Program-made: the position numbers and the translations under genes
Notes under the pieces: generated by a model
Database searches by the model: none
Told to the model about the DNA's origin: nothing
The model's input: only the letters and a program-made list of their open reading frames with translations
In this document: piece after piece, positions 62,675 through 64,000 of the stretch
Layout of the letters: each line of letters starts with the position of its first letter
Position numbering within the stretch: the stretch's first letter is position 1
Assembly: GCA_014800735.1 (NCBI GenBank)
Contig: JAAVFP010000012.1
Coordinates: 43,692-107,691, forward strand
Length of the DNA stretch: 64,000 nucleotides
Reading direction: 5' to 3'
Origin: Bacteroidales bacterium
GTDB lineage: Bacteria; Bacteroidota; Bacteroidia; Bacteroidales; Muribaculaceae

Positions 62675-63145
62675 TCAGATTGAAATTTCCAGAATTTCGA
62701 AGCGCACCTTGCCGGCGGGAATGGTGATTTCAACCACGTCGCCAACCTTGTGGCCCATCAGGCCGCGGGCAATGGGGGTGGACATGGCGATTTTTTTGGC
62801 TTTCATGTCGGCCTCGGAGTCGGCCACGATGGTGTACTCGGCCTCAACGCCGCGGTCCACATTGCGGATGCGAACGCGGTTGAGCATATGCACCTCGTCG
62901 GTGCCAATCTGGGTTTCGTCGATAATGCGGGCATTGGCCACGAGGTCCTTCAGCTGGGCGATTTTCATTTCGAGCATGCCCTGAGCCTCCTTGGCGGCGT
63001 CGTACTCGGCGTTCTCCGAAAGGTCGCCCTTGTCGCGGGCCTCGGCGATTGCGCGGCTGATTTCAGGACGTTTCACGGTTTCGAGGTAGGCTATTTCCTC
63101 CATTTTGCGGTCATAGCCATCTTTGGTCATATAGGTGATTGCCAT
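62675..63145 (-). CDS. greA: Transcription elongation factor GreA
   Basis: GreA enters the RNA polymerase secondary channel and triggers cleavage of backtracked RNA. The 156-residue protein has the coiled coil with the tip acidic pair in 'ARDKGDLSENAEYDAAKEAQ' and the C-terminal FKBP-like domain 'SPIAxGLMGHKVGD'-type sequence (here STPIARGLMGHKVGDVVEI). Its leader carries an attenuator-like hairpin. Confidence 0.97.
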   Translation of the reverse strand: MAITYMTKDGYDRKMEEIAYLETVKRPEISRAIAEARDKGDLSENAEYDAAKEAQGMLEMKIAQLKDLVANARIIDETQIGTDEVHMLNRVRIRNVDRGVEAEYTIVADSEADMKAKKIAMSTPIARGLMGHKVGDVVEITIPAGKVRFEILEISI

Positions 63146-63180
63146 AGTCTGTGATTATTTGGGGAGATTAATTTTTAGAA

Positions 63181-63217
63181 TAAAAAAAGAAAGAATCCCA
63201 CTCGATTTAACCGAGGG
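63181..63217 (-). terminator. Attenuator-like terminator in the greA leader
   Basis: On the minus strand CCCTCG and CGAGtGG pair (plus 63198-63217, one bulge) and are followed by GATTCTTTCTTTTTTTA. It lies between the greA promoter (63256-63263) and the ATG (63145), so transcripts could end early after about 70 nt. Confidence 0.6.
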
Positions 63218-63255
63218 AGTTCCTTGCAATTAATTACTGAATATTTTGTACGGCA

Positions 63256-63263
63256 CAAAGTTA
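63256..63263 (-). promoter_or_regulatory. -7 element of the greA promoter
   Basis: CAAAGTTA reads TAACTTTG on the minus strand. Start near 63250 gives a leader of about 105 nt before greA. Confidence 0.7.
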
Positions 63264-63334: not shown

Positions 63335-63342
63335 TACCTTTG
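63335..63342 (+). promoter_or_regulatory. -7 element of the recQ promoter
   Basis: TACCTTTG matches the consensus; start near 63348 gives a leader of about 17 nt to ATG 63365. The greA and recQ promoters are divergent, about 70 bp apart. Confidence 0.7.
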
Positions 63343-63364: not shown

Positions 63365-64000
63365 ATGACGACGCTCCCCTCCACTCCCCTGCGCTCACGC
63401 GCCCTGGCCCTGCTGGCCAAGTTCTACGGCTACCGCTCCTTCCGCCCCGGCCAGTTCGAGATTATCGAAGCCGTGTGTGCCGGGCGCGATGCCGTGGTGC
63501 TCATGCCCACCGGCGGAGGCAAGTCCATCTGCTTTCAGTTGCCGGCCCTGCTGGCCGAGAGCGGCGTGGCAATCGTGGTGTCGCCACTGATTGCTCTGAT
63601 GCAGGACCAGACCCAGGCCCTTATTGCCAACGGCATCCCCGCCGCGGCAATCCACTCGCACCAGTCCGAGGAGGAGAACCGCCGCATCCTCGATGCAGCC
63701 TTCGCCGGCAAAATCCGTCTGCTCTACACCTCGCCCGAGCGCCTCAACCTGGAGCTGGACCGCTGGGCGCGACTGCGCATAAGTCTCTTTGCCATCGACG
63801 AGGCTCACTGCATATCGCAGTGGGGCCACGACTTCCGCCCCGACTACACCGCCCTGGGCCAGATCAAGGAGCGCTTCCCCGGCACGCCGGTGATAGCTCT
63901 AACCGCCACGGCCGACCGCCTCACGCGCGACGACATCGCCTCGCAGCTCAATCTCCGCAACCCCTACTGCCATCTGGGCTCATTCGACCGCCCCAACATC
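63365..64000 (+). CDS. recQ: RecQ-family ATP-dependent DNA helicase, N-terminal part (truncated by window)
   Basis: The frame from ATG 63365 stays open to the window end, which is why the ORF track omits it. The first 212 residues include 'FRPGQFEIIEAVCAGRDAVV', Walker A 'MPTGGGKSICFQLPAL', 'VVSPLIALMQDQ', 'LLYTSPERLNLE', the DEAH box 'IDEAHCISQWGHDFRPDY' and 'VIALTATADRLTRDDI', in RecQ order with the aromatic loop. RecQ unwinds DNA in recombination and repair. Bacteroidota often have more than one RecQ paralogue, and the C-terminal domains that tell them apart are not visible. Confidence 0.95.
   Translation, partial: MTTLPSTPLRSRALALLAKFYGYRSFRPGQFEIIEAVCAGRDAVVLMPTGGGKSICFQLPALLAESGVAIVVSPLIALMQDQTQALIANGIPAAAIHSHQSEEENRRILDAAFAGKIRLLYTSPERLNLELDRWARLRISLFAIDEAHCISQWGHDFRPDYTALGQIKERFPGTPVIALTATADRLTRDDIASQLNLRNPYCHLGSFDRPNI

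Follow-up and report, generated by a model that had tools for sequence, protein, structure and literature searches.

The greA leader of E. coli, the source of the RNA GraL, was reportedly recognised as an attenuator by Potrykus in 2010. The terminator in that leader is imprecise and lets about one in three transcripts pass; in vivo, GreA acts through the leader to repress greA, for which its cleavage residues are required, but this was not so with purified components (PMC6829880). The enterobacterial greA leaders constitute the Rfam family RF01769. Leader attenuators of greA and rnk, with antiterminators reported, were also described for Proteobacteria, bacilli and Clostridia by Naville and Gautheret in 2010 (PMC2965389); for greA leader attenuation outside Bacteroidota, the present account relies on the literature. 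Bacteroidota are unmentioned in the article text of that study, and the main text of transcriptome papers on B. thetaiotaomicron and F. psychrophilum makes no mention of greA. The window considered here is the whole stretch of 64,000 nucleotides that was analysed, from a genome of the Bacteroidales; sequence, fold, covariation and controls place a predicted intrinsic terminator between its greA promoter and the start codon.

Layout of the greA locus

The greA gene (62675–63145, minus strand, ATG at 63145) encodes 156 amino acids and its identity was certain, the match to TIGR01462 reaching 179.7 bits against a cut-off of 139 (NCBIfam). Alignment with E. coli GreA showed that the catalytic acidic residues D41 and E44 are retained; these are necessary, but not sufficient, for feedback of the GraL type. 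A HIT-family gene is next after greA, while recQ (identified through NCBIfam; ATG at 63366, plus strand) is divergent from it, the two having an intergenic region of 220 nt in common. The -7 box of recQ, TACCTTTG, occupies 63335–63342 on the plus strand. That of greA, the Bacteroidota-type TAACTTTG, occupies 63256–63263 on the minus strand, and the start site was predicted a few nucleotides past it, at about 63248–63252. An AT-rich leader of about 30 nt separates TAACTTTG from the putative terminator hairpin, AAGGAACTCCCTCGGTTAAATCGAGTGGGATTCTTT (63190–63225, minus strand; -12.7 kcal/mol), and the T tract TTCTTTCTTTTTTT (63182–63195, minus strand), which contains the TTCTT columns described below and is the predicted release site, ends 36 nt from the greA ATG. 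No TAnnTTTG box was present between the hairpin and the ATG in the window. The hairpin and T tract claimed by the initial annotation between the greA promoter and ATG were there to be read in the sequence, and its estimate of a leader RNA of about 70 nt agreed with the 65–75 nt (63182–63252, minus strand) predicted from the positions of the -7 box and T tract.

Taken singly, the window sequence gave a modest signal. The 70-nt leader folded 1.8 standard deviations better than its shuffles (z = -1.8), which is weak evidence alone, and the whole 117-nt leader, with its 3' half included, folded no better than shuffles (z = -0.22). The hairpin was weaker than those of most relatives (-12.7 versus a median of -16.0 kcal/mol) and was not listed by a strict terminator consensus scan of the window because its stem is bulged. 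Judged by sequence comparison, it is conservation among relatives, rather than the window sequence alone, that carries the greA hairpin beyond chance.

Conservation and covariation of the leader hairpin

Regions upstream of greA were compared among relatives of the window's genome, 80 public genomes and genomes drawn evenly across the phylum; a few loci were near-duplicates, such that independent counts are slightly below those given here. The -7 box, hairpin and T tract preceded greA in that order at 28 of 29 loci from the same genus, and TAnnTTTG, which preceded the hairpin at 28 of them, was the best conserved promoter block on the alignment. The full arrangement of promoter, hairpin and T tract was observed at 58 of 78 further Bacteroidota loci, or 62 of 78 when a promoter was not required. 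Of the genomes in the even draw, 35 of the 47 from the same class and 18 of the 22 from other classes had hairpin and T tract before greA. Dinucleotide shuffles of the upstream regions produced only 0–2 qualifying cases per set, and 0–1 where the full arrangement was scored in the own-genus and further Bacteroidota loci; the background rate of the full arrangement in two control genomes was 1.4–1.6% of genes (3 of 213 in about 290 kb of the window's own genome, greA among them, and 3 of 189 in B. fragilis). Conservation in Bacteroidales, which the initial annotation had named as a check, was found and extended far beyond that order.

Median spacings were 22 nt between -7 box and hairpin and 47 nt between the end of the hairpin and the ATG; stem and T tract apart, the leader was unconserved, even inside the genus. 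A qualifying hairpin within 150 nt of greA was missing from 33 of 176 sampled greA genes (about 19%); some of these had one farther upstream or just under the T-count cut-off, and others were leaderless. Three Mucilaginibacter loci (L083, L091, L094) and four loci of same-class genomes (L144, L157, L160, L166) had a different leader hairpin, CAAGACTATGTAGG..CATAGTCTTG, conserved among themselves, and five loci from other classes (L171, L172, L194, L200, L212) had a further type in common, ATCGCCGCAGCC..GGCCGTGGCGTTCT.

An alignment of 58 greA leaders was used for analysis of the stem. The 15-pair consensus stem was formed in 86.5% of cells, and 13 of the 15 pairs displayed changes on both sides. 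Cells changed on both sides numbered 116, compared with 42.6 in shuffles, and none of 500 shuffles reached the covariation score. When the partner column was slid by one, the score was halved or worse, and all slid registers were far lower; this control leans toward the stem because the stem was read from these same sequences, and the count of compensatory changes (116 versus 42.6) is the sturdier number. The TTCTT columns of the T tract were at least 90% conserved. Two further details were kept across relatives, namely G-U pairs at the stem base (63189–63218; columns 15–17 with 56–58 of alignment A1) and a nearly invariant C inside the T tract; both are perhaps general to Bacteroidales terminators.

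Model R2 had a single match in the window, the greA hairpin (34.2 bits), the window sequence being part of its training set. R2, whose training left out Bacteroidaceae, ranked the greA leader of B. fragilis first in the 5.2 Mb of that genome (42.9 bits) in this held-out test, ahead of an intergenic gene-end terminator (31.7 bits). Otherwise, R2 and a second model, R1, picked up ordinary gene-end terminators, R1 doing so in many genomes, and a greA-only regulon was dropped for this reason; since both models behave as general terminator detectors, no regulon is claimed.

Separately, AGGAG or GGAGG was seen just before the greA ATG at 23 of the 78 further loci, from several Bacteroidales families (L039, L040, L055, L058, L066, L067, L068, L084, L089 and others), and at none of the 29 loci from the window's own genus. 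Such Shine-Dalgarno-like sequences are rare in the phylum; in B. fragilis, 5 of 189 genes had one. Strong Shine-Dalgarno sequences in Bacteroidia have been linked to autoregulation of rpsU (PMC9976891), and the translation of greA is therefore of interest.

A candidate attenuator and its alternatives

The layout, conservation and covariation described above were interpreted, with a probability of roughly 0.77, as a promoter-proximal intrinsic attenuator that acts in cis and limits greA mRNA. RNA polymerase would start at the greA promoter, make about 25 nt and then transcribe the hairpin, which together with the long, interrupted T tract would form an intrinsic terminator; part of the polymerases would release a leader RNA of about 65–75 nt, while the rest would read through to produce greA mRNA. 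When greA leaders were folded through the last base of the 5' arm, no conserved alternative to the terminator fold was found. The median energy was -1.8 kcal/mol for the competing fold and -16.0 kcal/mol for the terminator, which was retained in the minimum-energy fold of 82 of 87 leaders. With so weak a competitor and an unconserved intervening sequence, there is unlikely to be a riboswitch, a leader peptide or an antiterminator of the classical kind, and an attenuator of the antiterminator or riboswitch type was rejected. Given the lack of a conserved alternative fold, any switch would act on the polymerase, through pausing or backtracking at the T tract, GreA, NusA or NusG, rather than as a riboswitch or leader peptide. 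By analogy with GraL, feedback by GreA would be the most natural signal, plausible but taken by itself at somewhat less than even odds. A more ambitious proposal, which we regard as doubtful, is of a phylum-wide, antiterminator-free attenuator at which the RNA-cleavage activity of GreA would set read-through of the T tract, the capacity for backtracking thereby being gauged directly at greA, and which selection would have kept although the hairpin sequences turned over between orders.

The same features might instead describe a fixed, unregulated partial terminator that sets a low dose of greA with no feedback or signal. This is a narrower version of the attenuator reading, such that the two confidences overlap, and it stands at somewhat less than even odds. 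No conserved antiterminator or sensor was found, the stretch from promoter to hairpin is short and unconserved, and some flavobacterial hairpins begin so close to the expected start, within a few nucleotides, that a sensor would have no space, all of which would suit a fixed device; however, its upkeep across the phylum before this one gene, and the example of E. coli, where GreA feeds back on a leader laid out in this way (PMC6829880), argue for regulation.

Covariation of the stem alone would also fit a stem-loop that stabilises the 5' end of greA mRNA or controls its translation, without terminating transcription, but the conserved T tract directly past the stem, and a hairpin that ends a median of 47 nt short of the ATG, too distant to cover the start codon, make this improbable. 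The released leader could be a dual element like GraL, acting also as a small RNA in trans, and its predicted length is near that of GraL (37–59 nt, PMC6829880); yet beyond the stem and T tract no conservation is seen even among loci of the genus, giving no sign of a selected seed, and a second role is improbable. Only slight weight was given to a hairpin outside the greA transcript altogether, serving as an insulator or ending the transcript of the upstream gene as its 3' terminator. The upstream gene is in tandem at 63 of 86 loci, and R1 and R2 match ordinary gene-end terminators as well. However, it is divergent at the remaining 23 (the window and 22 others), where such an origin is excluded, the hairpin in the window not being a 3' terminator of the divergent recQ, and in most loci the -7 box lies between the upstream gene and the hairpin. 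Finally, a leader of the PyrG type, sensing CTP through repeated G addition at the start site, is very nearly dismissed, because the hairpin and T tract match Rfam RF02371 only weakly (25.3 bits, E-value 1.1, far below the gathering threshold of 65 bits), the window and its relatives have no initial G run at the expected start, and greA is not a nucleotide-synthesis gene.

Origin and comparison with described greA leaders

The initial annotation had supposed that such a layout in Bacteroidota would be either independent or ancient, and the evidence was divided. The distribution of the hairpin and T tract favours an old origin within Bacteroidota, because they span the classes of the phylum; on the other side, hairpins from different orders do not align by sequence, and no homology with the leader of E. 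coli was detected. An attenuator in the greA leader is a known kind of element. As far as found, it has no description from Bacteroidota in the open literature searched, a claim that is limited because the prediction list of Naville and Gautheret and the B. thetaiotaomicron supplements lie outside the search.

If termination is confirmed, attenuation in the greA leader would extend from the lineages already described to most of Bacteroidota, and would suggest that limits on GreA are generally needed. Being very short and having no antiterminator, the leader would also offer a clean system for how a cleavage factor might tune intrinsic termination, which is still unexplained in E. coli, where the feedback is seen in vivo and not with purified components (PMC6829880).

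By sequence, the element stands apart from the enterobacterial leaders and belonged to none of the Rfam families. There was no match to RF01769 in the window (gathering threshold 60 bits), so that it is not a member, while the same family model scored 127.5 bits on E. coli as a positive control; R2, when run on E. coli, did not find the greA leader there. The attenuators of Naville and Gautheret are alike in that a premature terminator stands before greA in several lineages, but antiterminators were reported among them and none was found in the Bacteroidota leaders (PMC2965389). Unlike GraL, the Bacteroidota leader is unconserved outside the stem. The parallel with the E. coli greA leader drawn by the initial annotation was upheld as regards layout: an intrinsic terminator is predicted near the promoter, between it and the ATG, arranged as in E. 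coli, with a leader of tens of nucleotides, a U-rich tail and a catalytic GreA protein. Without belonging to that sequence family, the greA element is laid out as the GraL leader is, and may work alike.
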